Origin: a virus
Reading direction: 5' to 3' (one strand)
Length of the DNA stretch: 22,002 nucleotides
IMG/VR virus record: IMGVR_UViG_3300030106_002705
Span: 1-22,002 of that record
Notes under the pieces: generated by a model
What the model saw: only the letters and a program-made list of their open reading frames with translations
What the model was told of the DNA's origin: nothing
Database searches by the model: none
In this document: piece by piece, positions 152 through 12,417 of the stretch
How positions within the stretch are numbered: the first letter of the stretch is position 1
Layout of the letters: each line of letters begins with the position of its first letter
Made by a program: the position numbers and the translations under genes

Positions 152-1242
152 TACACCAGACTCGCTATGCCTTGATCTTGTTCACCCATTGCCTGTTCAT
201 TCGCCATGTCAATAAGCATTTGGTATTCTTCTGGAGTGAGTTCATGAAGTTGTCTTCCGTTAAATATTTCCATAGACATATCATTTAAAGCATCCATAGG
301 ATCAACAGCAGAAGCCATTTCAATATTTTCATCAAAACCTGGACCTTTTATATTTTCATCTACTAATTCTCCCCATTTATAACCAATCCTTCCACCATCT
401 TTATAAGGTTGAAAATTTAAAAGCTCTTGGTTCGATGGAACATTTTGATTTACTGCTTGGGTGTTCGCAGCATTAGCATTGGTTAAGTCTAAAGGATATC
501 TCATTCGAAACTCTTTCATTTGATCGGTTTCTAAATCAGGATCCTGCGCAATGGGTTCTATAGCTTGTACTTTATTTCGATTTAAATAAGACATTAAGTT
601 ATCGTGCTCACCAAATTCTCGAACTCCTGCCCCAAAATCTTTAACTCCACTCCATAAATTACTTCCTTGATCCCCGGCCCAATTTTTAGCAGTCATAATT
701 CCACTCATAATTTTTCCTGGGATTCCTCCAAAGATACTCAGTGCACCTCTACCCAGAGCTCCTAATATTCCACTAATTCCAGCTCCTCGATTTCTAGGTC
801 TGAATCTAGATATGTCTTCTCTTTCTCTATAACCAAGTCTCTCCGCTTGTTGTCTTTCAGCTATTTGTAATGCTGCTCTTTCGTTTGCTACTCTTCTATC
901 AAAATCTCTGCCTGATTCACTAGGGCCTCGTCCAGAAAAACCTCTACCTTCCATAGCACCGCCGCCTGCTTCCGTGTCTCCACCACTTGCGCCGCCTCCA
1001 CCCACGTCACCAAAACTATCCAATGACATAATCCCTGATGGACCTATGTTAGGACCTTTTCTTAATGATCCATGTAAGTCGGTCTTTAATATTAAATCTT
1101 TTTCTGCTTCTGTAATGTAAGCTAATTCTGTTGGTGGTTTATTGGGACCTGATTGCCATCTTCGGGGAGCCTGAACTTGTGGCTGATTACCTAAATAATT
1201 ATCCACACCACCTTGAACTATCGGTTTCTTTTTAGTAGCCAT
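151..1242 (-). CDS. Glycine-rich putative virion/internal protein
   Basis: 363 residues of unknown function. Four parts are visible: a basic N-terminus, a Gly-rich low-complexity stretch around residues 76-106, a charged helical segment at about 112-150, and a Gly/Ile/Leu-rich amphipathic or membrane-active-looking stretch at about 153-186 (GISGILGALGRGALSIFGG). A later YKDGGRIGY motif near residue 280 is of a kind I associate with virion proteins of environmental marine phages. The C-terminus is acidic and ends DQGIASLV. The start overlaps the stop of the large tail gene (TAATG) and the stop overlaps the next start, so the gene is translationally coupled on both sides. A role as an internal or ejection protein would fit the apolar segment and late position, but I cannot confirm it. 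Confidence 0.8.
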   Translation of the reverse strand: MATKKKPIVQGGVDNYLGNQPQVQAPRRWQSGPNKPPTELAYITEAEKDLILKTDLHGSLRKGPNIGPSGIMSLDSFGDVGGGGASGGDTEAGGGAMEGRGFSGRGPSESGRDFDRRVANERAALQIAERQQAERLGYREREDISRFRPRNRGAGISGILGALGRGALSIFGGIPGKIMSGIMTAKNWAGDQGSNLWSGVKDFGAGVREFGEHDNLMSYLNRNKVQAIEPIAQDPDLETDQMKEFRMRYPLDLTNANAANTQAVNQNVPSNQELLNFQPYKDGGRIGYKWGELVDENIKGPGFDENIEMASAVDPMDALNDMSMEIFNGRQLHELTPEEYQMLIDMANEQAMGEQDQGIASLV

Positions 1243-3059
1243 TATCTTCTCCCATCTGGTTGTATGTCTAGTCTAAATGTTCCCAACTTCCAGTTTTCGG
1301 AAGTTGATGTGTTTGCTATTTTAAGCGCAATAGCTCTTCCTCGTGCGCGTGTGTCCACTTTATCAGTGGTATTGGTGATTGTAAAGGGACCTAATGAAGA
1401 ACTCGCTGACGAATCATTAGGATAATCTCTTAATAATAAAGTCACTTGAGTGTTTCCGGTTTGACTAATAAAATCTGGAATAAATCTTCTTATCTTCATG
1501 ATGTATTCCCCGTCTCCTCTGATGTCTGGAGCTCCTAATAGTTGTCCTTGAGCCGCTCGTTTTTGAGTAATATCAAAATCTCCTGAAAGAACATTAGCAG
1601 TGACGGCTGTCACGGCTCCCCCAGCATTAATTTGATCGGTCCCTGTTTCGTGTTCATAATAAATAGTAATACCATCGGTATTGCCTACTACATCATACGA
1701 GTCATCATCCGTGTTATCATAATAACAGGCATGAGGTTTATCGAATACGGAAGAATCGGCCCAGGCTGTACGAGGTAAGGAACCAGTAGTCCAAATAGGT
1801 CGTTTAGTAGTAGAGTCTAGATAGTTATAAGTCACCACTCGATCCACCACATTAGATCCTGAACTACAATAGAACCAACTCACTTCTCCAAAGAGGTTAT
1901 TCAGTCCAGCATTAATTAAATTTCTTGGTGTAGAGTTCAATCCTTCAAAGACATAGTCTTCCACTAAGCATGGCATCGATTGAAGTTGACCAGAGTATTG
2001 GAAGAAACCATTTTCTGACATCCAAAAAGCGGTACCATCAACTTCCATACAAGCATTTTTTCCAATGAGTCCGCAGTTCGTTCCTACGTGTTCAAAAGAA
2101 AAGGTAAAGGGTTGACCTACAAAACGCATTAAGAATAAAGCAGAATCCGTCCAGATATAAATTGCATCACGACCTCGAATGGCTCCCATAATTTTAGAAC
2201 CTTGGGCAAGTCTTTGTGTACCTGCCGTATTCGTTGAGGTTGGTGTGTAATCGGTTAAGGATTCCTGATCCGAGAATCTTATAAACATCGCATCTTGAGA
2301 GGTTGTCGTTCCAATCGTTGTCTCCGTTCCAAAGAAAATTAAATGACGGTCTGTTGGTGATACCAACATGTGTCTGGAAGCTGTAGGAGCTCCACTGATA
2401 ATCGTCGCTCGTGTTCCCGTAGGATTGGTTGCAGCCGAATCCCATTCAAAACAGGCACCATTATAAATTAAAGCAATAAGTTTAGTTCCATAGTTATCTA
2501 AAATCCACATTCCTGGTTCAATGGTAAAGTCAGCTGAAGACGCTTCCCCCCATGCAACATAGTCAGAAATATTAGTGACCGTAACACCGGCTAGGTGGGT
2601 CGCTTTCGTAGTTCCGTTTACTCCTCTAGCTCCTCCACTTAAAGTGTTTGTTGAAGTATTATTGGTAGTAAAACTAATGTCCTCTGTTCCTATTCTAATT
2701 TCTCCAGAAGTAGGAAAGGCTGCTGTGTTAGCCAGAACAATATCCGTTGTTGTCGTATCCGTTAAAGCGGTTGCTAAAGTTGTGGTTGCTGGACCAGAAG
2801 AAGTTCCTGACCATTGACCCGTACCCCAACCAAAGCCTCCTAGTTCCTGAGCGGGTCCCACACCATAATAGGTTTGAGCTCTACAGCTTCCTACTGCGCT
2901 CGTCGTTCCTGAGGCATTACTGCCCATCGTAATAGTAATGGTAGTTGCTGTAGGAACCGAAGTCGCCATAAATTTTACATCTTCAAACGCAGCATCCGTG
3001 TATCCTGAACCCGGAGGTGCAGTCACCGTATCTAATAAAACAATATCATCCTCACTCAT
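1242..3059 (-). CDS. Large tail / DNA-stabilisation-like structural protein, 5' end apparently lost
   Basis: 605 residues from the first ATG. The C-terminus has the pattern WKLGTFRLDIQPDGRR, which I associate with phage stabilisation/tail accessory proteins of the P22 gp10-like type (large beta-rich proteins at the head-tail junction of podovirus-like particles). Residues about 91-164 hold a Ser/Thr-rich insert with AAFPTSGEIRIGTEDISF followed by a Gly-Gly-Ala-Arg-Gly and Thr-His pattern; the same insert type occurs in two other virion genes here. The ATG at 3059 has no Shine-Dalgarno sequence, and clear coding sequence continues upstream in frame to 3317, so 3059 is probably not the ancestral start. 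The normal first 25-40 residues of this family are absent. Expression may be reduced or may use a non-standard start. Confidence 0.75.
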   Translation of the reverse strand: MSEDDIVLLDTVTAPPGSGYTDAAFEDVKFMATSVPTATTITITMGSNASGTTSAVGSCRAQTYYGVGPAQELGGFGWGTGQWSGTSSGPATTTLATALTDTTTTDIVLANTAAFPTSGEIRIGTEDISFTTNNTSTNTLSGGARGVNGTTKATHLAGVTVTNISDYVAWGEASSADFTIEPGMWILDNYGTKLIALIYNGACFEWDSAATNPTGTRATIISGAPTASRHMLVSPTDRHLIFFGTETTIGTTTSQDAMFIRFSDQESLTDYTPTSTNTAGTQRLAQGSKIMGAIRGRDAIYIWTDSALFLMRFVGQPFTFSFEHVGTNCGLIGKNACMEVDGTAFWMSENGFFQYSGQLQSMPCLVEDYVFEGLNSTPRNLINAGLNNLFGEVSWFYCSSGSNVVDRVVTYNYLDSTTKRPIWTTGSLPRTAWADSSVFDKPHACYYDNTDDDSYDVVGNTDGITIYYEHETGTDQINAGGAVTAVTANVLSGDFDITQKRAAQGQLLGAPDIRGDGEYIMKIRRFIPDFISQTGNTQVTLLLRDYPNDSSASSSLGPFTITNTTDKVDTRARGRAIALKIANTSTSENWKLGTFRLDIQPDGRR

Positions 3060-3320
3060 TCCATGAGGACTTGGGAAGTTAATAGTAACTGTAGGTTGAC
3101 CGCTCGTGGTTGAAAAAGTACAACTGGTAATCGTATTTTTAATAGGGGTAATGTCATAGTACTGACCCCCTGAATAGACGTATAAAATTCTGTTTGTTCC
3201 TATGGCTGCGTATTTAATACCAGCATTATCATCAAAATGGTGAAGAGCTCGTCCCGCTCCTGTGAGTTTATCCTCACCGAGTTGTTGCCAGCCCCCTATC
3301 TTCTCAGGAGTTCCATATCA
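3060..3320 (-). pseudogene. In-frame upstream coding remnant of the large tail gene
   Basis: Codons from 3317 down to 3060 are open, in frame with the downstream tail gene, and encode family-like sequence beginning YGTPEKIGGWQQLGEDKL and including IKYAAIGTNRILYVYSGG. There is no ATG, GTG or TTG in this stretch. Directly before it in the same frame lie TGA (3320-3318), TAA (3332-3330) and TAG (3338-3336, the stop of the oxygenase gene). Relatives as I recall them read ...VRFRxGTPEKIGGW after an N-terminal segment. That segment is missing here, and the three codons before TGA do not resemble it. This looks like a junction where the 5' end was removed or replaced. An assembly chimera remains possible. 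Confidence 0.6.
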
Positions 3321-3335
3321 ACTCTTTGCTTAGCC

Positions 3336-3842
3336 CTAATTAAATGTCAAAACCACCAAAACCCTTCGTCCTGTCTTAGGAAAGTCCATACAATGCAAGG
3401 GTCCTCCCTTAAAACCAAAGGCTTTAAATTGTTTAGGTTTAATTGTCTTTATAACTTTGTTTTTAGAATTTAAAATAAAGGTAGAGCCTCCATCTGATTG
3501 ATTTAAATGCATTAAAAATTGATAATGAGGAAAGTCATGATCTACATGAGGAGCGCTTCGACCTGCTTGAGGATAAGTGAGGTTAATACATCCTCTAAAA
3601 AATACATTACACGGGATCTTATGGCGATGGGCAAATCTTTTAACAATCGTTATAAAAAAATTAGCGTGAGGGGAAACAATCTTTTGAGTGTCTCTGATAA
3701 TTAAGCCATGAAACAACCAAGGTTTTCCTTCACCCTTAATACTTTCTTCTAACCAATAAAAAGGAGTGTGTTCGCTAAGAACGGTATTAGTGATATGTTT
3801 TTTTTCTTGCTCGGTAAGAATATCTTCATCTTCAATAACCAT
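3336..3842 (-). CDS. 2-oxoglutarate/Fe(II) dioxygenase-like protein (oxygenase 5 of 5)
   Basis: 168 residues, the shortest and most divergent of the five oxygenase-like genes. A jelly-roll type facial triad can be proposed: His99 and Asp101 (APHVDHD), then His150 (PLHCMDF), with Arg159/Arg160 as the candidate 2-oxoglutarate-binding residue (KTGRRVLVVLTFN). The segment after the triad start (HYQFLMHLNQSDGGSTFIL) has the expected strand pattern for the small-molecule-hydroxylase fold. ATG at 3842-3840 overlaps the preceding TAA by one base. The stop at 3336 is only 18 bases before the truncated tail gene frame. Substrate unknown. The assignment rests on motif spacing rather than overall similarity. 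Confidence 0.75.
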   Translation of the reverse strand: MVIEDEDILTEQEKKHITNTVLSEHTPFYWLEESIKGEGKPWLFHGLIIRDTQKIVSPHANFFITIVKRFAHRHKIPCNVFFRGCINLTYPQAGRSAPHVDHDFPHYQFLMHLNQSDGGSTFILNSKNKVIKTIKPKQFKAFGFKGGPLHCMDFPKTGRRVLVVLTFN

Positions 3843-4486
3843 TATTTAGGGATGCCCAATAAAGGACGTTGATCATAGAGATTAGTTTTAGCAAAAGGCC
3901 CATTAGAATGATTATAATGTAAAAAAACTTGAGAACATATATTTCCTTGGAAAGGTTCTCGCCAGTGCTCTAATTCACACCCTGAATAAATCAACATGTC
4001 TCCTTGTTTTAAATCAACTTGAACGCCTTTAGGAGCATTGGGTTTATGAATCTGTTTATATTCATCAATCACAAAAGTTTGTCCTGACGGATCCAGAAAG
4101 ATAGGCCATTCATCTCCCCCTAAGTGGAGAGTGGTAGATATCTCACAGCTCGGTCGATCTTTATGACGTCTTAAAATATTTCCTTTTTCATAAACACGGG
4201 TATAGGCATATGTAGGAACTAAATCCAAACCCGTTCGTTTCTTCATGATCGGAATCATCTTGAGTAATAAAGTTTCCATAGCCCAATCAGCATATTTAGA
4301 ATAAGATCCTGGCACTTGTTTATCTTCGCGTGTCCCTATAAAAGGATTCCAGGCATTTAGTCTATTCTTAAGCATCAGGTAATCCACAGCGTCCCGCTGC
4401 AACATCATATAATGAAATATAAATTCAGAAAGCTCTTTAGAAAGAGCCCCTCTTATCACTTGATATTTTTTTGCTTTAAAACTCAT
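3842..4486 (-). CDS. 2-oxoglutarate/Fe(II) dioxygenase (oxygenase 4 of 5)
   Basis: 214 residues. The metal-binding pair is His108 and Asp110 in ILRRHKDRPSCEIS, followed by TTLHLGGDEWPIFLDPSG. The distal histidine is probably His174 in DMLIYSGCELEHWREPF, preceded by the usual 'GDMLIYSG' strand. This layout matches oxygenases that I recall from cyanophages and marine phages. The position where most relatives carry the 2-oxoglutarate Arg (about ten residues after the distal His) reads CSQVFLHYN, so the counter-ion would have to come from another residue. ATG overlaps the previous stop by four bases (ATGA). Substrate unknown; hydroxylation of a protein side chain or other virion- or host-associated molecule is possible. 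Confidence 0.88.
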   Translation of the reverse strand: MSFKAKKYQVIRGALSKELSEFIFHYMMLQRDAVDYLMLKNRLNAWNPFIGTREDKQVPGSYSKYADWAMETLLLKMIPIMKKRTGLDLVPTYAYTRVYEKGNILRRHKDRPSCEISTTLHLGGDEWPIFLDPSGQTFVIDEYKQIHKPNAPKGVQVDLKQGDMLIYSGCELEHWREPFQGNICSQVFLHYNHSNGPFAKTNLYDQRPLLGIPK

Positions 4487-5091
4487 ACAACATCTGCTTG
4501 ATAGATATTAAAAGAAACAGAAATTCTCCAACTCTTTTTTCCTTTAGCTTGTGATTTATTTTGTTCTACTCCATGCGGAAGCCATCCCGGAAACATAATA
4601 CAGTCTCCTTCAATAGTAGGATATTTAATAATTCTCCATAAAGGTCTCGGGACATTATCACGACGTCGTGGCATTAAAATATTAGGTCCCGCTCTAGGGT
4701 CTACTACATATAATAATCCTGCATCTTTTGGGGGAATTTTTATATAATAAGCACCTGATAAAACCGCGTTAGGATGAATATGTTCTATATTAAAAGAACC
4801 GGGGTAATTAATATTGGCCCACATGTTTCCCATAGATACCCGAGGACCTACCCACCAATCTTTAAAAACTTCTTCTGCCATAGTCATAATGTGTTGTTGT
4901 AAGAGATTATATTCTGGGAGCGTATGCATAACCGTAGGACTATGCCACCCTTCACCTGCATTCGTTTTCTTCAGAGAAGGTGCGTTCTCACTCCATTTTA
5001 TAATATCTTTAGTTAATTGGTTATTTAGATTTTTAAAATCAGGAAATTTTTTAAAATAGATAGGAGTAGGAAATAAAACTTCACGGTTCAT
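4483..5091 (-). CDS. Putative 2-oxoglutarate/Fe(II) oxygenase, TIGR02466-like (oxygenase 3 of 5)
   Basis: 202 residues with the hallmark order of the phage/marine oxygenase family resembling TIGR02466. It starts with LFPTPIYFKKFP, then MWANINYPGSFNIEHIHPNAV with His104 and His106, then LSGAYYIKIP, a DPRAGP strand, a GDCIMFPGWLPHGV segment with distal His173, and Arg189 in WRISVSFN. All residues expected for Fe(II) and 2-oxoglutarate binding are visible. The HxH in place of HxD is how I recall this family. Start and stop both overlap neighbours by four bases, so the gene is part of a coupled run. It is the best-matching of the five to a named family. The substrate is unknown. Confidence 0.9.
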   Translation of the reverse strand: MNREVLFPTPIYFKKFPDFKNLNNQLTKDIIKWSENAPSLKKTNAGEGWHSPTVMHTLPEYNLLQQHIMTMAEEVFKDWWVGPRVSMGNMWANINYPGSFNIEHIHPNAVLSGAYYIKIPPKDAGLLYVVDPRAGPNILMPRRRDNVPRPLWRIIKYPTIEGDCIMFPGWLPHGVEQNKSQAKGKKSWRISVSFNIYQADVV

Positions 5092-5675
5092 TTAAAGGGA
5101 GGTCCTCCAAACCACATAACCAATGAACGTCTGATTCCTTTTTTAACTTTATTGACTCGGTGTCTTATAAAACTTGCAAAGAAAATCGCTTGACCTTGTT
5201 TTAAATCATCAGGTTTATTTCCATCGTTCATAAATTCTAATTCTCCCCCTTGAAATTCTGAGGGATCTGAAAGTAAAATAGTCATGGATACTTTTCTTAC
5301 TGGAGGCTCGTTCAAACAATTAACATCTGAATCCATATGCCAATTATAAAATCCTCCTTTAGGGTATTCAGTATATTGTGCGGGCTCACTAATTTCCATT
5401 CCTTCAAAACCAAAATGATTTCCATTACATTGAAGCATGGTACGTTCAATTATTCTATACATCTCAGGCATTTTGGCAAAAGGAATCCAACTAATATGAG
5501 TGACCCTTTTATTAATATCATAGGATCCTCCTCTAGTTCCTCCTTTGTCTCCGACCTTAGCCTCTTCTTTTTTTTCTGCGTGTCCGGCTCTAATAATATT
5601 TTGACATTGTTCAGGAGTAAAAATAGGATTATTCGTCGTGGCAATCAAAGATTTCCATTTGGGTTCAAACTTCAT
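5088..5675 (-). CDS. Prolyl-4-hydroxylase/PKHD-type 2-oxoglutarate/Fe(II) dioxygenase (oxygenase 2 of 5)
   Basis: 195 residues with a textbook P4Hc/PKHD pattern: QYTEYPKGGFYNWHMDSD gives His113 and Asp115, FQGGELEF at 141-148 is the typical following strand, RHRV gives distal His172, and KGIRRSLVMWFGGP carries the 2-oxoglutarate Arg (182/183). The final 'WF.GP' matches the PiuC/YbiX-like branch, whose relatives hydroxylate protein or metabolite substrates that are mostly unknown in phages. Length is about that of the catalytic domain alone. ATG overlaps the preceding stop by four bases. All catalytic residues are present, so an active enzyme is expected. Confidence 0.92.
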   Translation of the reverse strand: MKFEPKWKSLIATTNNPIFTPEQCQNIIRAGHAEKKEEAKVGDKGGTRGGSYDINKRVTHISWIPFAKMPEMYRIIERTMLQCNGNHFGFEGMEISEPAQYTEYPKGGFYNWHMDSDVNCLNEPPVRKVSMTILLSDPSEFQGGELEFMNDGNKPDDLKQGQAIFFASFIRHRVNKVKKGIRRSLVMWFGGPPFK

Positions 5676-6331
5676 TGAGCCGTCCTTGAAGCAATAGGAT
5701 TATAATTCACATCACAATTACAAACCAACGTTCTTCTTTTTTCTTTTTTATTACTAAAGGGATAAACCACATGCCTTACATCATAAGGAAAGACATAGAA
5801 ATCTCCAATCTTCATTTTAGGAGAGTAGTCAGACGTTACAAATTGTCCTCCCGCTGATCCCATTATTTGAAGTTGGCCATTCATGGGTTGATCGGGTCGT
5901 GTTAATTCAGGACCCATATCTTTAGGAAGTTTAAGAATCATAACAGAAGAAAGTCCTGTATAAATTTTTCCTTGATGAATATGCACAGGATTATAATCTC
6001 CTGCTTTCATTTCATTAACCCAGACAGAATCAATTTTCATGTCATACTCTCGAGTTTTATTCCATTTTAAATAATGATCAAAAGTACCATAGAACCATTT
6101 CATAATATCTTCGGGTAAAAAATTATGGCCATGCATTTTTTGATTATCAGGTCCTGCATAAAACATAGAGACCTCATCAGGAATTTTACCGGCTAATTGG
6201 TTATTGGCGTTGGGTAAGAGTTTCTTTTGCTTTTCGTAAATTTCATTTAAACCTACAAATACTTCTAAAGGCACATGATATTTTAAAACCGATTGTCCTA
6301 AAAATACAAATTCAAATTGGGGAGAAGGCAT
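5672..6331 (-). CDS. Putative 2-oxoglutarate/Fe(II) oxygenase (oxygenase 1 of 5)
   Basis: 219 residues. The core reads DSVWVNEMKAGDYNPVHIHQG, giving His117 and His119, then YTGLSSVMILKLP, a GQLQIMG strand, and KIGDFYVFPYDVRHVVYPF with distal His187, followed by Arg199/Arg200 in the RRTLVCNCDVNY strand. This is the same general layout as the TIGR02466-like gene two positions downstream, but the two differ strongly in sequence and do not look like a recent duplication. The start follows the previous stop directly (TAAATG), with no good Shine-Dalgarno, so translation is probably coupled to the coiled-coil protein gene. Substrate unknown. Confidence 0.85.
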   Translation of the reverse strand: MPSPQFEFVFLGQSVLKYHVPLEVFVGLNEIYEKQKKLLPNANNQLAGKIPDEVSMFYAGPDNQKMHGHNFLPEDIMKWFYGTFDHYLKWNKTREYDMKIDSVWVNEMKAGDYNPVHIHQGKIYTGLSSVMILKLPKDMGPELTRPDQPMNGQLQIMGSAGGQFVTSDYSPKMKIGDFYVFPYDVRHVVYPFSNKKEKRRTLVCNCDVNYNPIASRTAQ

Positions 6332-7000
6332 TTAACCCTTCAATTGTTTTTTCTGATCTTTGTAAGGAAGAAGTTCTCCAGATTTTTTTACTCGTTCTAA
6401 AGTTTCTAATTGTCCTAACACATTAAAGACTTCAGGTTGACTAGATCCTGGAGTTAACGTTCGTTTTTTATTCTCTAACATATGGGTATAAGATTCTGCT
6501 TGATGAGTATTAACATTACGTTTATCAAATTTTCCATCATCAAATTCTTTCTTTAACTTAGACCAAGAACTAATTTCTCTCATTCTAGCTTTCGCAACTA
6601 ATTCCATATTAGCTTTAGCATACATCTTTTCTTCAAGCTCTACTTGTTTCATTTCTTTCTCTAAAGTATCTTTTTCTTTTTTAATATCTCTTTGAATTTT
6701 TTTAATCTCAACATCATTTTTTCTATAATCAAAAGAAAGATGCATTAGATTTTCAAAATGGGTATTCTGTTCTCTAACCGATTGCCAATACTTAGCTGCA
6801 TTGCTTCCATATTTAGCATCATTTAAAACAGAAAAACGCATTTCTGTTTCAGTTCTAAACATTTGTTTCTTAACCCAGGTGTCCTGAAGTTCAGGGACCA
6901 TAGCTTTAAATTCACTCACATCAGATTTATCTAATAAAGCTAACATATGCTTTACCTCTTTATCTGCGTGCTGTTGAATATTACGTTTTCCTTTATTCAT
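6332..7000 (-). CDS. Coiled-coil protein of unknown function
   Basis: 222 residues, highly charged and predicted almost entirely helical. A long heptad-like Lys/Glu-rich coiled coil spans about residues 93-150. It begins MNKGKRNIQQHADKEVKHML and ends in a Lys-rich tail. No enzyme motif, signal peptide or membrane segment is visible. I recall similar coiled-coil proteins next to oxygenase genes in marine phages, but I know no function. It is the first gene after an intergenic hairpin pair and heads the oxygenase run, with GGAGAAAG as ribosome-binding site. It could be a partner or scaffold for the oxygenases, or a minor virion component. Confidence 0.82.
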   Translation of the reverse strand: MNKGKRNIQQHADKEVKHMLALLDKSDVSEFKAMVPELQDTWVKKQMFRTETEMRFSVLNDAKYGSNAAKYWQSVREQNTHFENLMHLSFDYRKNDVEIKKIQRDIKKEKDTLEKEMKQVELEEKMYAKANMELVAKARMREISSWSKLKKEFDDGKFDKRNVNTHQAESYTHMLENKKRTLTPGSSQPEVFNVLGQLETLERVKKSGELLPYKDQKKQLKG

Positions 7001-7092: not shown

Positions 7093-8901
7093 TTAACTAG
7101 CAGTCCATGCCTTAACCGCAGGTGCTAATGTCCATTGTTCTACACTAGTTCCTACCGCTGGAGTTGGGTATCCTGCAATAGCTAATGCGCTAGCCGTCGT
7201 TGTTCCAGCGCCACAACAGCCCGCACGAGCTTGTGCGAGATCTGCGCCTGCAGCCCAATTAGTTCCATCCCATGTTTCTGTTAAGGTATCATATGCCGCA
7301 GGTTTATTTCCTCCGTATACCATTCCTAAAGTTTGAAGACCAAACCCTGATTGCTGCTTATTCTTACGACCTGTGACTTGGTTATTAACTTCCGTCCATG
7401 CCGTGCCGTTCCAGGATTCTGTATTTCCTCCCGGTTCAGGTTGACCAGAAGAACAAATTGAAGCAGTTGTTGTTCCAAAATTTGTAGGGACAGCCCTAGC
7501 TGTATTTAAATCTGCTACTTCAGTCCAAGAAGTTCCGTCGAATTCTTCTGTTTCTGCTCGATAACCGGCACCAGGTCTTTCCCCTCCAACACACATCGCT
7601 GCGGTTGTAGTTCCTGATCCACCTTGACCATATCTTCCATAGTTCAGATCTGCTACTTCAGTCCAAGAAGTTCCGTCCCATTCTTCAGTAAGGGCTCCAG
7701 GAGGATAGTTTCCTCCAAAATATAATGCTGCTGTTTGACTTCCAGCACCACTATTTTCTGTTCTTCCTGTATTTAAATCATTTACTTCGGTCCAACTTGT
7801 TCCATCAAAACTTTCAGTATTAGTGGTATTTCCTCCACCTTCAATTAAAGCTGCATCAACTGTTCCTTGTCCAGTTCCCGCAGGTCGTGGATTCGCCACT
7901 GCTGCTCCTGATGCCCATGAACCTGTACCTTGTGCACCAAAACCTTTAACGGTATTTGATGAAGTATTATACCAAACTTGTCCTTCTTGAGCGAGAGTAT
8001 AAGGAGGAGAAGCTGTTGTAAATTCTTCTGTTGCGGTTGACCGTGAAGGTTCTTCTCCACCAAAGGCTACCGCAGCTGTCAATACACCTGCTCCACCTAA
8101 ATCTCCTCTAGCTGTCGCTAAATCGGAAAGTTCAGTCCAAGACGTTCCATCATAAGTTTCTGTTTTTCCTGTAGCAGCTGTATCATGCCCTCCAAAAGCT
8201 AAAGCTGATCCTACTACTCCATTTCGTGCTGAGGATATATTATTTCTAGCAGTATTTAAATCAGCAATTTCTGTCCAACTGGATCCATCATATTGTTCTA
8301 CTGCTGCTGTATCACTTCCTGTGCTTCCACCTATAGCTAAAGCAAGTGTTTGTACTCCAACACCAGCTAATCCATTTCGAGCGGTATTTAAACTTCCACC
8401 TGCAGTCCAAGATGAACCATCGTATTCTTCACATGCCGAAGATACTGGAGGAGGATCTTGATTACCTCCCATAGCTAATCCAGCAGTTTGCGTTCCTGCT
8501 GCTCCTAAATTATATCGTGCAGTGCTGAGTGATCCACCTGCAGTCCAAGAACTTCCACCCCATTCTTCAGTAGCTGTACTCACTGGCGGTATTCCACCGA
8601 ATACTAAGCCAGCCGTGGTAGTTCCACATCCTCTACGACCATATTTTGTTGGTGATTCTTGTAAAGCTTGAATAGGACTCCAACTAGTTCCATTATAAGT
8701 AAAAGAAGTGGCTGTAAGGCCAGTAGGATAATATCCTCCAGCACTCATTGCTGCAGTTTGAGTTCCAAAAGAAGCCATATTATTAGTAGCCGTAGGCATA
8801 GATCCACCAGCAGCCCATGTTCCTGAAGCTGCCACGGATATAATAGGATCACTGTCAAGTGATTGAATTGTAAAACCTCTTATAGCTCTATAAGTTGCCA
8901 T
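7093..8901 (-). CDS. Double six-bladed kelch-like propeller, putative receptor-binding/tail-fibre tip protein
   Basis: 602 residues. After the N-terminal tag MATYRAIRGFTIQSLDSDP, twelve repeats of about 41-48 residues can be counted. They have the pattern SWTEVADLNTAR, then G-x-G-T-x-T-A-A, then a Gly-Gly pair, then an aromatic plus DGT/S leading into the next Trp. This is a kelch-like blade. Six blades come first, then a linker with EGQVWYNTSSNTVKGFG, then six more. The C-terminus reads VKAWTAS, echoing the ends of the two related genes. Beta-propellers on phage tails usually bind receptors or glycans, so host recognition is the likely role. No catalytic galactose-oxidase-type residues are evident. 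ATG overlaps the stop of the upstream paralogue (TAATG). Confidence 0.85.
   Translation of the reverse strand: MATYRAIRGFTIQSLDSDPIISVAASGTWAAGGSMPTATNNMASFGTQTAAMSAGGYYPTGLTATSFTYNGTSWSPIQALQESPTKYGRRGCGTTTAGLVFGGIPPVSTATEEWGGSSWTAGGSLSTARYNLGAAGTQTAGLAMGGNQDPPPVSSACEEYDGSSWTAGGSLNTARNGLAGVGVQTLALAIGGSTGSDTAAVEQYDGSSWTEIADLNTARNNISSARNGVVGSALAFGGHDTAATGKTETYDGTSWTELSDLATARGDLGGAGVLTAAVAFGGEEPSRSTATEEFTTASPPYTLAQEGQVWYNTSSNTVKGFGAQGTGSWASGAAVANPRPAGTGQGTVDAALIEGGGNTTNTESFDGTSWTEVNDLNTGRTENSGAGSQTAALYFGGNYPPGALTEEWDGTSWTEVADLNYGRYGQGGSGTTTAAMCVGGERPGAGYRAETEEFDGTSWTEVADLNTARAVPTNFGTTTASICSSGQPEPGGNTESWNGTAWTEVNNQVTGRKNKQQSGFGLQTLGMVYGGNKPAAYDTLTETWDGTNWAAGADLAQARAGCCGAGTTTASALAIAGYPTPAVGTSVEQWTLAPAVKAWTAS
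7510..7677 (-). repeat. 30-bp direct repeat inside the second propeller
   Basis: An identical 30-base stretch occurs at 7510-7539 and 7648-7677, 138 bases (exactly 46 codons) apart. It encodes the blade start around DGTSWTEVADL on the minus strand. Because the spacing is one whole blade, recombination between the copies would remove or add one blade in frame. Confidence 0.85.
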
Positions 8902-9893
8902 TATGTTGCCGTCACCGTTTTAGTTGTTGGACCCACTGTCCATTCTTCTGTTGCATTGGAGAAATTACCGGCTGGTACTGGTGCATAACCAAAACCTAAT
9001 AATCCAACGGTAGTTGTTCCTCCACCAACATTATTCGGACCTCGTGGTGTTGAAAAATTTGTTGTCTCTGTCCATGTAGAACCATCATAAGTTTCGACGA
9101 ATGTTGTTTGGGGTGAACCTGTATCTCCTCCAGCAAACATCATGGCGGTTTGAGTTCCCCATCCCGCGCCATTGTCTCTTCCATTATTTAAATCTCCAAC
9201 TTCTGTCCAACTTGATCCATCATAAGTTTGTGTTTCTGCTTTATGAGGGGGATTTGATCCTGTATTAATTGCAGATGTTTGAGTTCCTGTTCCGCTACTT
9301 CCACCTGCAGAAAAAAGTTGATCCCCTCCTGCAGTCCAAGATGTTCCATCATATTCTTCTGTTCTAGTTCCTTGGCCAGGTGTTGTTGAGGGATATTTTC
9401 CAGATCCTAATGTAACCAGTCCGGATGTTTGTGTACCAGCACAACTTGCACCTCTTCGATAAGTGGTTGTTGAACCACCTGCAGTCCAGCTTGAACCATC
9501 CCATTCATAACAATCATTTTTATATCCGACGTTATCACCATCAACAGCTAATGCGGCTGTTGAAGTTCCCAGTCCTCTAATTCCTGCTCGTGCAGCAGGC
9601 AGAGCTGTAATTGCTGTCCACGCTGTACCATTATAAGTTTCAGCATTGGCCATATTGCCTACAGGATTATAATATCCTCCAAAAGCAATAGCAGCTGTTT
9701 GAGTATTACCTGAAGAAGCCGATCCTACATCTCCTCTAAGTTGATTAGCAGTTCCTCCTGTAGCCCAAGCACCTACTGTAGTTACATATTTTAAAGTATT
9801 GCTAGCTGTATTATAATAAACTTGTCCAATAACTGACGGATCAGTAGCTAAACTTTCTACTTTAAAACCTTTGATTGTTTTTAAATCTGCCAT
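8901..9893 (-). CDS. Single six-bladed kelch-like propeller protein, putative tail-fibre/receptor-binding
   Basis: 330 residues, paralogous to the flanking 602- and 632-residue proteins but with only one propeller. The shared tag MADLKTIKGFKVESLATDP is followed at once by the linker IGQVYYNTASNTLKYV, which in the longer paralogues lies between the two propellers. Six blades follow, with recurring SWTAGG / SWTEVGDL starts, and a C-terminal cap KTVTAT. The layout is what is expected if the first propeller had been deleted between tag and linker. No signal peptide. TAGGAAATTATTATG supplies a modest ribosome-binding site. Likely a virion-surface adhesin variant. Confidence 0.85.
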   Translation of the reverse strand: MADLKTIKGFKVESLATDPSVIGQVYYNTASNTLKYVTTVGAWATGGTANQLRGDVGSASSGNTQTAAIAFGGYYNPVGNMANAETYNGTAWTAITALPAARAGIRGLGTSTAALAVDGDNVGYKNDCYEWDGSSWTAGGSTTTYRRGASCAGTQTSGLVTLGSGKYPSTTPGQGTRTEEYDGTSWTAGGDQLFSAGGSSGTGTQTSAINTGSNPPHKAETQTYDGSSWTEVGDLNNGRDNGAGWGTQTAMMFAGGDTGSPQTTFVETYDGSTWTETTNFSTPRGPNNVGGGTTTVGLLGFGYAPVPAGNFSNATEEWTVGPTTKTVTAT

Positions 9894-9902
9894 AATAATT
9901 TC

Positions 9903-10184
9903 CTATTCTAAAACCTCTCTAACAGGTCTACTTTTTTGTTCTTGAAGAAGGGCTGAAGCATCCCATTGAGATTGAGAACTTGTTAATAAAGTATCTAATG
10001 TTTCTTGTACAATATCTTTATGTATAACTTCCGCATTGTGTCTTTTGATCCAAGCTTTAGCTTCAGGACATTGTTTAATTTTCCATAGTTCAGTGCCGTA
10101 GCTCTTTGGTTCCAAAGAGACACACTCTTGGTGAGTTATAAAACCTTTTCCAGTATTAGTGGCTTTGCAATAATAATATGCCAT
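9903..10184 (-). CDS. Small MAYxYC-type protein, paralogue 2
   Basis: 93 residues starting MAYYYCKATNTGKGFITHQECV. A longer reading in this frame reaches 10331, but its first 49 residues lie over the neighbouring gene and look like shadow sequence. The ATG at 10184 is preferred because it aligns exactly with the start of the upstream paralogue (MAYRYCTATNFGKGFFTHKD). The two proteins share the first 19-20 residues and then diverge. This one continues with a Trp/Lys-rich segment and a helical C-terminus. No known domain is recognised. Lying between propeller genes, it could be a fibre-associated adaptor or chaperone. Only 13 bases separate it from the upstream paralogue. Confidence 0.75.
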   Translation of the reverse strand: MAYYYCKATNTGKGFITHQECVSLEPKSYGTELWKIKQCPEAKAWIKRHNAEVIHKDIVQETLDTLLTSSQSQWDASALLQEQKSRPVREVLE

Positions 10185-10197
10185 AATATTTTCTAAA

Positions 10198-10482
10198 CTA
10201 TAATATACTATATTTAACTGGTCTATCTTGTGCTGCCTGTTCGTCAGCTGACATTGCATCATAAGCTGCTTGTGCGGTTTCAACTTCACCATCAACAATT
10301 GCTTGTGCTTCTGCTTTAGTTTTAGATACACCGCTTTGACGGCCTATCCAATCAACTCCATCAGAATTGTCACCTACGATCCAAACGTTGCCAGGTTCAC
10401 CTCTTAAGAAAAATCTTTCACGGTCTTTGTGCGTGAAAAAACCTTTTCCAAAATTAGTGGCTGTACAATATCTATATGCCAT
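10198..10482 (-). CDS. Small MAYxYC-type protein, paralogue 1
   Basis: 94 residues beginning MAYRYCTATNFGKGFFTHKD. The start has a strong ribosome-binding site (AAGGAGGAAACAACTATG). The N-terminal 20 residues are shared with the next gene downstream. The middle reads NVWIVGDNSDGVDWIG, and the C-terminal half is an Ala/Glu/Gln-rich helix ending RPVKYSIL. No known domain is recognised. The pair sits between the 632- and 330-residue propeller genes, so a role linked to the fibres (assembly factor, small virion protein) is a reasonable guess only. Confidence 0.82.
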   Translation of the reverse strand: MAYRYCTATNFGKGFFTHKDRERFFLRGEPGNVWIVGDNSDGVDWIGRQSGVSKTKAEAQAIVDGEVETAQAAYDAMSADEQAAQDRPVKYSIL

Positions 10483-10518
10483 AGTTGTTTCCTCCTTTTT
10501 TAATTTTATAAATCATAA

Positions 10519-12417
10519 TTAACTCACTGTCACGGTTTTAATACTATATGCTGGAACTGACCAATCGCTTGATGCTGCTGGCTGTGTACTTGGATTAGAT
10601 CCACCACTAATATTAGCAGCCGTTGAACTTCCAATTCCACCTGTTCTAGTTACAGCTGAAGGAATATCACTCTCTTCACTCCAACTCGTACCATCCCAAG
10701 TTTCTACATTAGTTACTTTAGTTGGGGTTTCTCCTCCTGCAACCATAGCTGCCGTTGAAGTTCCTGCACCTCCGTTTTGCAGTCCGCCTCTGGCAGTATT
10801 TAAATCTGATCCTTCTGACCAAGTGGAACCATTAAAAGATTCTACGTTGGCAAAAGTTGATGTACCAGGCCATGTTTGTTTTCCTCCAACACAAAGAGCT
10901 GCAGTTGAAGTTCCTACACCCGATTCTAATTCTCTTCCCGTATTTAAATCTCCTGTTTCAGTCCAATTCGTACCATCAAATGATTCAGTTAAAGCTGAGT
11001 TAGGTGTTCCTGGGCCTCCACCACCTATACATAAAGCGGCAGTAGTAGTTCCCAGAGGTGTACCTGTAGTATAAACTCGTGCACTATTTAAATCATTCTT
11101 TTCTGTCCAACTGGATCCATTCCATAATTCTGTATTCCCTACTCCCGCAGAGGATTGAGATCCTCCAAAAACTAAAAAACTTGTTTGAGCGCCAGGTCCT
11201 CCTGAGCCTCCTCCTCCAAATCGATATGTATTTAAAGATGTTGTTGAAGTCCATGATGAACCATCGTATTCTTCTACCGCAACTCCGGCTCCTCCACTTA
11301 CTGGGGGTTCCCCCATTGCGATGATACCAGCCGTTTGAGTACCGGCTCCAGCTTGTAAATCTCTTGCTGTATTTAAATTTCCACCGGATGCCCATGATCC
11401 TGTACCAGCACTTACATATTTAAATTTACCCGATGCAGTATTATAATAAAGATCACCAACAATGGCATCCGTATATTCGGCTGCCGGTCCTGGTGCGGCT
11501 GTATAAGTCCATTCTTCAGTTGTTAGAAGATTTGCTGAACTTCCTGGGTGTGCTCCTCCTCCATATAATCCAGAGGTACTAGAATTTCCTGAAGCAGGTT
11601 GATAACTTCGTGCTTGCGCCATAGAATTTCCTGTTGAAAAAGAACTTCCATCCCATATTTCAGTTGTTGTAATTGCGGGATAACTTCCTCCGGCTACTGC
11701 AAAAGCCGCTGTCGTTCCGAAGGCTCCTCCCATTTGTCTAGCCGTACCCATGTCAGTTACTTCTGTCCATGAAGTACCATCATAGTTTTCTACTTTAGCT
11801 GTCTGAGCTGGACCAAGATCTCCTCCAATACAAGCTGCAGCAGTTTGACTACCAACATTCATTCCACAACTTCTTTTTCTAGCACTATTCATGTTATTTC
11901 CTTCAGCCCATGAACTGCCATTCCATTCTTCAGAATCAGCCGTTGCCGGGTCTCCACCTCCAGAAAATAATCCTGCTGTTGTAGTACCAACGGTATTACC
12001 ATCTACTTTGGCTGCACTTAAATCTGCTACTTCGGTCCAAGTGGTACCATCATAATGTTCCGTGTTGGCCTGATTACCTGCTGGTGGAGCATTAGTATAA
12101 CCTCCGGCTATCCAACCAGCTGTTAAAATACCAGCTCCTGTTGAAACAAACCCACCGGGTCTACTTGAATCATTTCCTAAGGTCCAAGAACTTCCATCAT
12201 ATTCAATGGTAGTTTTAACATAACCAGTTGGTGGAGATTCTCCACCCACCATCACTGATGCTGTTAGAGTTCCAAAAGTTCCTGCAGATCTTCGAACGAC
12301 ATTTATGTTCCCTCCAGAAGACCACACACCTGTTGATGCGGGTGCATCTGCGTAAGGAGTTGGATCCGCGCTAAGATTTTGTACTGTAAATCCTTTGTAA
12401 CTTTTAAGATCAGCCAT
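10519..12417 (-). CDS. Double six-bladed kelch-like propeller, putative receptor-binding/tail-fibre tip protein
   Basis: 632 residues. N-terminal tag MADLKSYKGFTVQNLSADP, then six kelch-like blades (about residues 31-308), a linker with VGDLYYNTASGKFKYVSAG, and six further blades to the C-terminus, which ends IKTVTVS. Blades follow the same consensus as the other two propeller genes: SWTExxDLNTAR, GxGTxTAA, a Gly-Gly pair, and an aromatic-DGS/T-Trp hinge. It is the largest and first of the three paralogues and lies directly after the tail-fibre-like gene, which suggests that it docks there through the tag. The likely role is host-surface or glycan binding. The start (CCTCATG) lacks a clear Shine-Dalgarno and lies five bases after the previous stop. 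Confidence 0.86.
   Translation of the reverse strand: MADLKSYKGFTVQNLSADPTPYADAPASTGVWSSGGNINVVRRSAGTFGTLTASVMVGGESPPTGYVKTTIEYDGSSWTLGNDSSRPGGFVSTGAGILTAGWIAGGYTNAPPAGNQANTEHYDGTTWTEVADLSAAKVDGNTVGTTTAGLFSGGGDPATADSEEWNGSSWAEGNNMNSARKRSCGMNVGSQTAAACIGGDLGPAQTAKVENYDGTSWTEVTDMGTARQMGGAFGTTAAFAVAGGSYPAITTTEIWDGSSFSTGNSMAQARSYQPASGNSSTSGLYGGGAHPGSSANLLTTEEWTYTAAPGPAAEYTDAIVGDLYYNTASGKFKYVSAGTGSWASGGNLNTARDLQAGAGTQTAGIIAMGEPPVSGGAGVAVEEYDGSSWTSTTSLNTYRFGGGGSGGPGAQTSFLVFGGSQSSAGVGNTELWNGSSWTEKNDLNSARVYTTGTPLGTTTAALCIGGGGPGTPNSALTESFDGTNWTETGDLNTGRELESGVGTSTAALCVGGKQTWPGTSTFANVESFNGSTWSEGSDLNTARGGLQNGGAGTSTAAMVAGGETPTKVTNVETWDGTSWSEESDIPSAVTRTGGIGSSTAANISGGSNPSTQPAASSDWSVPAYSIKTVTVS

Follow-up and report, generated by a model that had tools for sequence, protein, structure and literature searches.

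Five adjoining Fe(II)/2-oxoglutarate oxygenase-type genes and an ordered, co-inherited cassette in the tail region of an uncultured marine phage

Layout of the locus

Why would a phage have five distinct Fe(II)/2-oxoglutarate (2OG) oxygenase-type genes in direct succession within its tail region, and do they form one unit? The question is raised by an uncultured, SAR11-phage-related marine phage (IMG/VR record IMGVR_UViG_3300030106_002705; positions 1 to 22,002, hereafter the window). Positions 3336-6331 hold five intact minus-strand open reading frames (ORFs), here named, in gene order, E (5672..6331, 219 aa), D (5088..5675, 195 aa), C (4483..5091, 202 aa), B (3842..4486, 214 aa) and A (3336..3842, 168 aa). 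E/D, D/C and C/B overlap by 4 bases each and B/A by 1, in line with the adjacent or 1–4-base overlapping starts and stops described by a sequence-only reading of this DNA, and the run sits where that reading had placed it, between the fibre genes and a tail gene. On the upstream side, the stop codon of the minus-strand gene cc (6332..7000; 222 aa, coiled-coil-like and Lys-rich, with 15.3% K) directly adjoins the ATG of E. Farther upstream lie three kelch-like fibre/tip genes (phrog_27227; 7093-8901, 8901-9893 and 10519-12417), which are candidate substrates, and amid them a small gene (9903-10331), all on the minus strand. Downstream of A is the gene for a tail ‘stabilization’ protein (phrog_3287; 1242..3317, minus strand). 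A promoter and terminator scan of the region gave counts near chance. A putative ParB-like label also occurs upstream of E.

A co-inherited cassette

The natural unit is an ordered cassette, cc followed by E-D-C-B, which recurs in many ocean viruses. E, D, C and B were all present, in E-to-B order, in 65 of 65 contigs anchored on E alone (45 of 45 after dereplication at 95%) and in all 30 contigs anchored on B. The 4-base overlaps are kept in relatives, between E and D in 77, D and C in 86, and C and B in 62 of 104 loci; cc lies upstream of E in 61 of 62 loci, and a tail gene follows within 1.5 kb downstream in 88 of 97. Distances among cc, E, D, C and B are tightly correlated (Mantel r 0.88-0.94; 0.89-0.94 for cc with the four oxygenase genes), whereas the cassette genes correlate less with the fibre gene (0.40-0.47) and the tail gene (0.2-0.3). 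The kelch-like fibre genes (7093..12417) thus stand outside the co-inherited unit. The GC content of the cassette is 31-37%, against 42-45% in the neighbouring fibre and tail genes, and a median dN/dS of about 0.13 for B to E indicates purifying selection; for A, the pairs are too diverged for this ratio.

cc has no match among 50,697 deposited phage records and matches phrog_1409 weakly. A sulfotransferase gene, recognized by Sulfotransfer_2 (22.4 bits, cut-off 22) or phrog_3347 ‘Galactose-3-O-sulfotransferase’, adjoins B on its 3′ side in 34 of 124 loci and is absent from most loci, this one included. Scanning cellular genomes for B returned five contigs, three in Pelagibacteraceae records and two metagenome-assembled contigs with possibly wrong binning; two of the three Pelagibacteraceae contigs are from single cells, are about 60 kb long and carry D-C-B without E or cc. 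By analogy with cultured HTVC023P-type members, the host of this lineage would be SAR11/Pelagibacter.

Metal ligands and enzyme families

The histidine ligands are conserved in 100% of the sequences of each family (88 for A, 141 for B, 132 for C, 124 for D and 114 for E), which bears out the HxD/HxH and distal His patterns that the sequence-only reading had seen in all five genes. An HxD...H triad is present and conserved throughout in A (HVD99-101/H150), B (HKD108-110/H174) and D (HMD113-115/H172). C (HIH104-106/H173) and E (HIH117-119/H187) are without the canonical HxD/E...H triad and have an invariant HxH...H instead, as do 3bvc and 2rg4, solved relatives of C, which are likewise HIH; because C and E carry HxH, their metal chemistry may differ. 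A candidate arginine for the 2OG carboxylate is invariant in A (R160), C (R189), D (R182) and E (R199), and R176 and R207 are the only candidates in B.

By profile, C (72.2 bits, 4.9e-20) and E (43.5 bits, 4.3e-11) are members of PF13759 (cut-off 27 bits), with a non-canonical triad. The proposal that two of the genes are TIGR02466-like (cut-off 62.5 bits) is right for C, at 113.1 bits, but fails for E, at 17.3. D exceeds the PF13640 cut-off (4.7e-14) and, in a sequence comparison with solved structures, matches PiuC and Sbal_3634 (E about 3e-7); its best score against PKHD-type hydroxylase profiles (PiuC/YbiX, PRK05467) is 54.7 bits, with NCBIfam cut-offs of 143-399. On these scores D is a relative of the PKHD-type hydroxylases, not a member. 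Searching solved structures by sequence gave nothing meaningful for E. The five genes are thus of the Fe(II)/2OG oxygenase type by invariant ligands and by fold, the latter taken from predicted structure for A and B (AlphaFold, Foldseek and VIA) and from Pfam cut-offs only for C, D and E; turnover is predicted.

We rejected recent tandem duplication as the origin of the run. As the sequence-only reading had held, the five are divergent, with no pairwise phmmer match among them at E ≤ 10 and little profile similarity. Profile-profile comparison gave a sizeable probability only for C-E (83%) and C-D (52%), with narrow profiles that leave room for deep homology among the five.

Folds and labels of A and B

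Pfam has no family for A or B (none at E ≤ 1 for B), and their profiles found nothing meaningful among solved structures by sequence search; this search being uninformative, the fold was used as the basis. The two were the doubtful cases for the jelly-roll check that the sequence-only reading had proposed, and both are predicted to be 2OG jelly rolls, so the refuting outcome that it had named did not arise for them. For B (AlphaFold pLDDT 81.9), Foldseek ranks the prolyl 4-hydroxylase (P4H) 4iw3 best (6e-9) and 2OG oxygenases dominate the top 50, while VIA gives Z scores of about 15-16, with the small-molecule enzymes SnoN, AviO1 and MysH as best matches, tied with PHD2. For A (pLDDT 94.7), the best Foldseek/VIA match is the 2OG oxygenase 6n1f (Z 16.7), and PiuC is also matched; AlkB and ALKBH1 structures reach Z of about 14, with PKHD/PiuC and PHD2 equal or better. 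The structures that A and B resemble include peptidyl hydroxylases, namely PHD2, the bacterial P4H with EF-Tu (4iw3), the viral collagen P4H 5c5t, P3H1 and OGFOD1.

These folds are at odds with the database labels of B (phrog_2954, ‘ferrochelatase’) and A (phrog_274, ‘DNA endonuclease V’). The Pfam ferrochelatase profile has no match in B, nor at E ≤ 10 in five B homologues from cultured phages; the endonuclease V / pyrimidine-dimer glycosylase profile has none in A or in five phage proteins so labelled, four of which match PF13640 (E 0.03 to 1e-7). Ferrochelatases are also absent from the fold-match lists, which alone we do not count as proof. Because the predicted structures are 2OG jelly rolls, both labels are probably wrong, and the two families are probably mislabelled 2OG oxygenases. 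The ferrochelatase-partner claims published for pelagiphages therefore need re-examination: both the reported partnership of ferrochelatase with 2OG genes and the seasonal ferrochelatase enrichment (PMC11561400) probably reflect one enzyme superfamily, not two functions.

Relation to known phages

Runs of adjoining 2OG genes are a known kind of arrangement, with precedents in cultured phages, so the suggestion that five in a row had not been described does not hold. HTVC008M has five adjoining 2OG-type genes (gp68-gp72, GenBank), including a ‘ferrochelatase’, as here, and Mosig EXVC030M has six (00055-00060, GenBank), including a ‘ferrochelatase’ and an ‘endonuclease V’. Genes for the tail, baseplate and neck surround both runs; however, these phages are T4-like myoviruses with another gene order, and cc was not found in the stretches read. 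HTVC023P (gp65-67), HTVC033P (gp58-61) and 023Pt_psg01 (GenBank) have D-C-B or A-D-C-B in the late structural region, but lack an E before D and lack cc, and their B is 50-52% identical.

For the same virus group, the HTVC023P-type pelagiphages, eight 2OG genes that are co-located and not orthologous to one another were reported by Wittmers et al. 2022 (PMC9599517) under the term ‘partner AMGs’, with a ‘ferrochelatase’ always beside a 2OG gene. There the genes are described as nearby, non-adjacent and of varying order, and ferrochelatase is taken to be a haem enzyme; here, by contrast, cc-E-D-C-B is ordered, overlapping and co-inherited, and the ‘ferrochelatase’ has a predicted 2OG oxygenase fold. 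Cyanophages carry 1-5 2OG oxygenases per genome (PMC3037559) and S-SCSM1 has 24 in all (PMC9602691), which makes the earlier figure of one or two per phage too low. These enzymes belong to the same superfamily and Pfam families and their function is putative, but there they were presented as the expansion of a family and not in the form of a single ordered cassette.

Possible functions

Most likely, the cassette serves late modification of virion tail/fibre proteins or surface glycans, on a putative substrate. The pathway suggested by the sequence-only reading, with virion proteins, glycans or lipids as its targets, is thus plausible, and a sulfotransferase accompanies the run in some relatives. 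Tentatively, and at somewhat less than even odds, we favour a transferable operon of HTVC023P-type phages that would modify late virion tail/fibre proteins and that consists of cc, the four non-redundant oxygenases E-D-C-B and optional 3′ extras (A, the fifth oxygenase, in this phage and frequently a sulfotransferase in relatives). The cassette would be expressed together with late tail proteins, and each enzyme, with O2, Fe(II) and 2OG, would hydroxylate its own site or residue type on new tail or fibre proteins; cc may act as substrate, scaffold or adaptor, and the sulfotransferase, if present, would sulfate the hydroxyl groups of side chains or of attached sugars. The likely gain would be changed virion stability or receptor/surface interaction. 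The folds and ligands, the peptidyl-hydroxylase neighbours, the conserved order and overlaps, the fixed position in the tail module, the inheritance as a block, the distinct GC content, the purifying selection, the comparable runs in HTVC008M and Mosig and the sulfotransferase after B in some loci argue for this reading; against it, fold matches cannot separate peptide, small-molecule and sugar substrates, and the HxH sites of C and E may have another metal chemistry. Cassette distances follow the fibre gene modestly, so a tight enzyme–fibre match is not evident. Collagen-like fibres were rejected as a substrate, with no G-X-Y run of at least 5 in the structural genes of the window that were checked. 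For gp72-74 of HTVC027P, no timing is stated in the text of the transcriptome paper, and the text on the S-SCSM1 virion proteome does not name a 2OG oxygenase as a virion protein.

A rather unlikely alternative is tailoring of surface glycans or lipids: the oxygenases, joined in relatives by the sulfotransferase, would modify sugars or lipids, either in the host envelope or on the virion, and thereby alter receptors or block superinfection. The sulfotransferase beside B in 34 of 124 loci would fit, as would the glycosyltransferase a few genes downstream in HTVC023P and HTVC027P and the resemblance of B to HygX and AviO1, which act in pathways of sugar-containing antibiotics. Yet the cassette itself has no glycosyltransferase, the sulfotransferase is missing in most loci, and the neighbours of A and D are of peptidyl-hydroxylase/PKHD type. 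Auxiliary metabolism, mainly 2OG consumption acting on nitrogen-status signalling, or iron/haem metabolism with ferrochelatase, seems very unlikely, although 2OG modulation was proposed by Sullivan et al. 2010 (PMC3037559) and ferrochelatase is a co-occurring gene in Wittmers 2022 (PMC9599517) and in a 2024 ISME J paper. Burning 2OG would not need four non-redundant, ordered enzymes, and the 2OG-oxygenase fold predicted for B, with its invariant HKD...H and lack of a Pfam ferrochelatase match, removes the haem link. AlkB/TET-like modification or repair of DNA or nucleotides appears highly improbable: the label of A, its AlkB/ALKBH1 matches and the weak Tet_JBP match of a 2OG gene that one relative (L009) carries between C and B point that way, but A to E match no profile for Tet_JBP, AlkB or endonuclease V, the cassette is in the tail module and not near replication genes, and A scores PKHD/PiuC and PHD2 as well as or above AlkB-type structures.

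Modification of virion proteins could also take a more specific and quite unlikely form, in which cc-E-D-C-B is an assembly line that successively oxidizes one substrate (cc or a tail fibre) at several sites, with sulfation next in some relatives, and that has been dispersed in cassette form through abundant marine phages; if so, virion proteins of phages would pass through a pathway of hydroxylation(-sulfation). The ordered, co-inherited set of four enzymes and one non-enzyme partner offers a concrete system in which to ask what hydroxyls are added, and to which protein or glycan.

Gene A and its downstream junction

A is an optional add-on, at a place where relatives often have a sulfotransferase. 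Co-occurrence, which the sequence-only reading had proposed to search for with all five genes, extends to E-D-C-B, but A is in none of the 65 E-anchored contigs. That reading had also overlooked three points: cc is part of the unit, A is optional, and the junction downstream of A (3317..3336) is suspect. The tail gene lacks its first ~37 codons: its open frame and its homology to tail genes of relatives begin at 3317-3319, and the listed ORF begins at an internal ATG at 3059. Among the viral contigs searched, a 23-mer spanning the junction occurs in this one only. The junction may be a deletion or recombination scar or an assembly join, and the placement of A needs confirmation. Independently of function, A may have been falsely joined, by a chimeric contig or a deletion at 3317-3336, and the natural unit would then have four oxygenases or another downstream order; we regard this as somewhat doubtful. 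Against it, the B-A junction is clean, with its 1-base stop/start overlap, the ligands of A are intact, and other contigs also have an A-like gene in the interval from B to the tail gene, namely three further loci (L170, L172 and L174) and two with the order B-A-sulfotransferase.

Five overlapping oxygenase genes

The phage is of the HTVC023P type, with capsid and terminase 80% and 66% identical to those of HTVC027P, and the window spans 22 kb of its 32-kb IMG/VR record. Five genes, designated E to A in gene order, lie on the minus strand as one overlapping run (3336–6331): E (5672–6331), D (5088–5675), C (4483–5091), B (3842–4486) and A (3336–3842), with overlaps of 4, 4, 4 and 1 bases. E and C match PF13759 and D matches PF13640, all above the Pfam curated cut-offs. 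A Pfam search returned no family for A or B, and their PHROGs matches are labelled ‘DNA endonuclease V’ (A, phrog_274, 1.8e-23) and ‘ferrochelatase’ (B, phrog_2954, 1.5e-51). The arrangement that the sequence-only reading described is thus real, and its classification of all five as 2-oxoglutarate (2OG)-Fe(II) oxygenases is right.

Upstream, three kelch-like fibre paralogues occupy 7093–12417 with a small Lys-rich gene (9903–10331) between them, an arrangement seen again in the related loci L022, L058 and L133.

Fold and catalytic residues

Structure prediction, which the same reading had proposed as a check, was run on A and B, and the best matches of both are 2OG oxygenases. For A, the model (45 sequences, pLDDT 94.7) best matches the 2OG oxygenase 6n1f (Z 16.7), 3dkq and PiuC; PiuC is also a sequence match of D, and 3bvc and 2rg4 are matches of C. 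For B, the best model from a 26-sequence alignment reached a pLDDT of 81.9, with Foldseek placing prolyl-4-hydroxylase 4iw3 (6e-9) ahead of other 2OG oxygenases in the PDB and VIA Z of approximately 15–16 against SnoN, AviO1 and PHD2. Two of the five B models were much poorer, so the assignment leans also on the invariant motif.

Ligand conservation, scored in 88–141 relatives per family, identified invariant residues in all five proteins: H99, D101, H150 and R160 in A; H108, D110 and H174 in B; H104, H106, H173 and R189 in C; H113, D115, H172 and R182 in D; and H117, H119, H187 and R199 in E. The metal site of C and E is non-canonical, because both carry HxH; human AspH is a published example of a 2OG oxygenase that deviates from the usual triad (PMC13168262).

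A co-inherited cassette

Relatives were collected by two separate searches, anchored on E alone and on B alone. Among E-anchored contigs, all 65 that extend downstream by 2.6 kb or more carry D, C and B in order, as do 45 of 45 once the set is dereplicated at 95%, and C, D and E were found in 30/30 B-anchored contigs with room upstream. The overlaps are kept, extra-gene variants occur (EDCCB, EDDCB, CEDCB and EDCBC), and a tail ‘stabilization’ gene lies less than 1.5 kb from B in 88 of 97 loci. A Lys-rich, coiled-coil-like gene (6332–7000; hereafter, cc) precedes E in 61 of 62 loci. Between protein distance matrices, r is 0.88–0.94 within the set cc, E, D, C and B, 0.40–0.47 against the adjacent kelch fibre and 0.2–0.3 against the tail gene; all compared genes come from the same genomes, so that the contrast in r, not its absolute value, is the evidence. 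Together with the GC contrast in the window (31–37% in the cassette versus 42–45% in its neighbours), this shows that cc-E-D-C-B behaves as a single inherited unit, whose exchange is at least in part independent of the flanking genes. Median dN/dS is approximately 0.13 for B–E, indicating purifying selection. We found no cultured representative of the full cassette, since cc was not detectable in any deposited phage record and E reaches at most approximately 34% identity there, over partial length. The unit of cc and four oxygenases is firm.

Many relatives carry a small ParB-like gene between C and B (for example, L013:2444–2863) with the cassette order unchanged; 15 loci have exactly E-D-C, this gene, then B.

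The slot between B and the tail gene

This slot is empty in 80 of 124 loci, holds a sulfotransferase (PF03567 or phrog_3347) in 34 and an extra A, C or D in a few. Sulfotransferase-like genes that follow B or an extra gene include L011:2759–3373, L003:8487–9035 and L015:10885–11535. In the window the slot is filled by A, whose company is typical, as related A genes occur in B, C, D runs elsewhere. The B–A junction is clean. The window’s tail gene lacks its first ~37 codons: homology to relatives starts at 3317–3319, with stop codons immediately upstream, and a 23-mer spanning the A/tail gene junction (3317–3336) was absent from every other viral contig searched. This junction is either a deletion or recombination scar in the phage or an assembly join of two templates. 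A is probably part of this arrangement.

Possible function

Fold, ligands, order, overlaps, co-inheritance and tail-module context are shown by the analysis; we suggest that the cassette may be co-expressed with late proteins and that its oxygenases would hydroxylate virion tail proteins. The top structural neighbours of A and B include peptidyl hydroxylases, although small-molecule enzymes score equally for B and AlkB-type enzymes are close for A. More speculatively, kelch repeats, with their many equivalent sites, would suit repeat-modifying hydroxylases. The strongest rival to tail-protein hydroxylation is glycan tailoring, because of the sulfotransferase in the relatives’ slot. Should B not be a chelatase, the published metabolic interpretation would be left without its haem component.

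The cc protein, which co-varies with the oxygenases (r ~0.9) and has no cultured-phage match, is a candidate substrate or scaffold.

Precedent and annotation

The sequence-only reading took five adjacent 2OG genes to be undescribed, which GenBank records contradict: HTVC008M has five (one labelled ‘ferrochelatase’, followed by four with matches to 2OG Pfam families), Mosig has six adjacent such genes, and HTVC023P, HTVC033P and 023Pt_psg01 have D-C-B or A-D-C-B runs. Wittmers et al. 2022 described 2OG AMGs of eight non-orthologous kinds that are ‘frequently nearby ... (although not adjacent)’ and have ferrochelatases as partners (PMC9599517); Sullivan 2010 listed as many as five in a cyanophage and, in addition, a ‘hyp. 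with ferrochetalase domain’ (PMC3037559); and S-SCSM1 has 24 2OG oxygenase genes (PMC9602691). The arrangement strongly illustrates a tendency already known in marine phages, with the unit newly delineated and the annotation usefully corrected. Three things are new: a cassette that keeps its order and is inherited together with cc, a slot that can hold a sulfotransferase, and the relabelling of ‘ferrochelatase’ and ‘endonuclease V’.

Relabelling ‘ferrochelatase’ bears on PMC11561400, in which 2OG oxygenase and ferrochelatase (phrog2954) are reported to be two seasonal, co-occurring categories. No earlier correction of either label was found in the literature searched, which took in few subscription papers. 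Five PHROGs families (phrog_2297, phrog_1644, phrog_2954, phrog_3531 and phrog_274), labelled variously DNA endonuclease, minor coat protein, ferrochelatase and endonuclease V, match 2OG-oxygenase-like proteins (L009:2569–3003 and L027:5314–5964 among them); the structural tests covered members of phrog_2954 and phrog_274. The phrog_1644 match also hits Pfam DUF6445 and resembles 2OG oxygenases weakly in the Pfam comparison.

Related loci

A 167-aa protein adjoins the 2OG run at L157:14549–15052 (HTVC023P gp64) and L158:14208–14711; its C terminus is 2OG-like by eye and lacks the distal metal histidine, and a Pfam search gave no match. In HTVC027P, a different set of three 2OG-like genes, gp72–74 (L159:14093–15754), precedes the same tail gene and is encoded on the opposite strand. 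D-C-B with the tail gene also occurs on two ~60-kb contigs in Pelagibacteraceae genome records, L249 (QCMS01000007.1) and L250 (CACEXE010000006.1), probably phages caught in single cells, which would link the wider phage group to a Pelagibacteraceae host.
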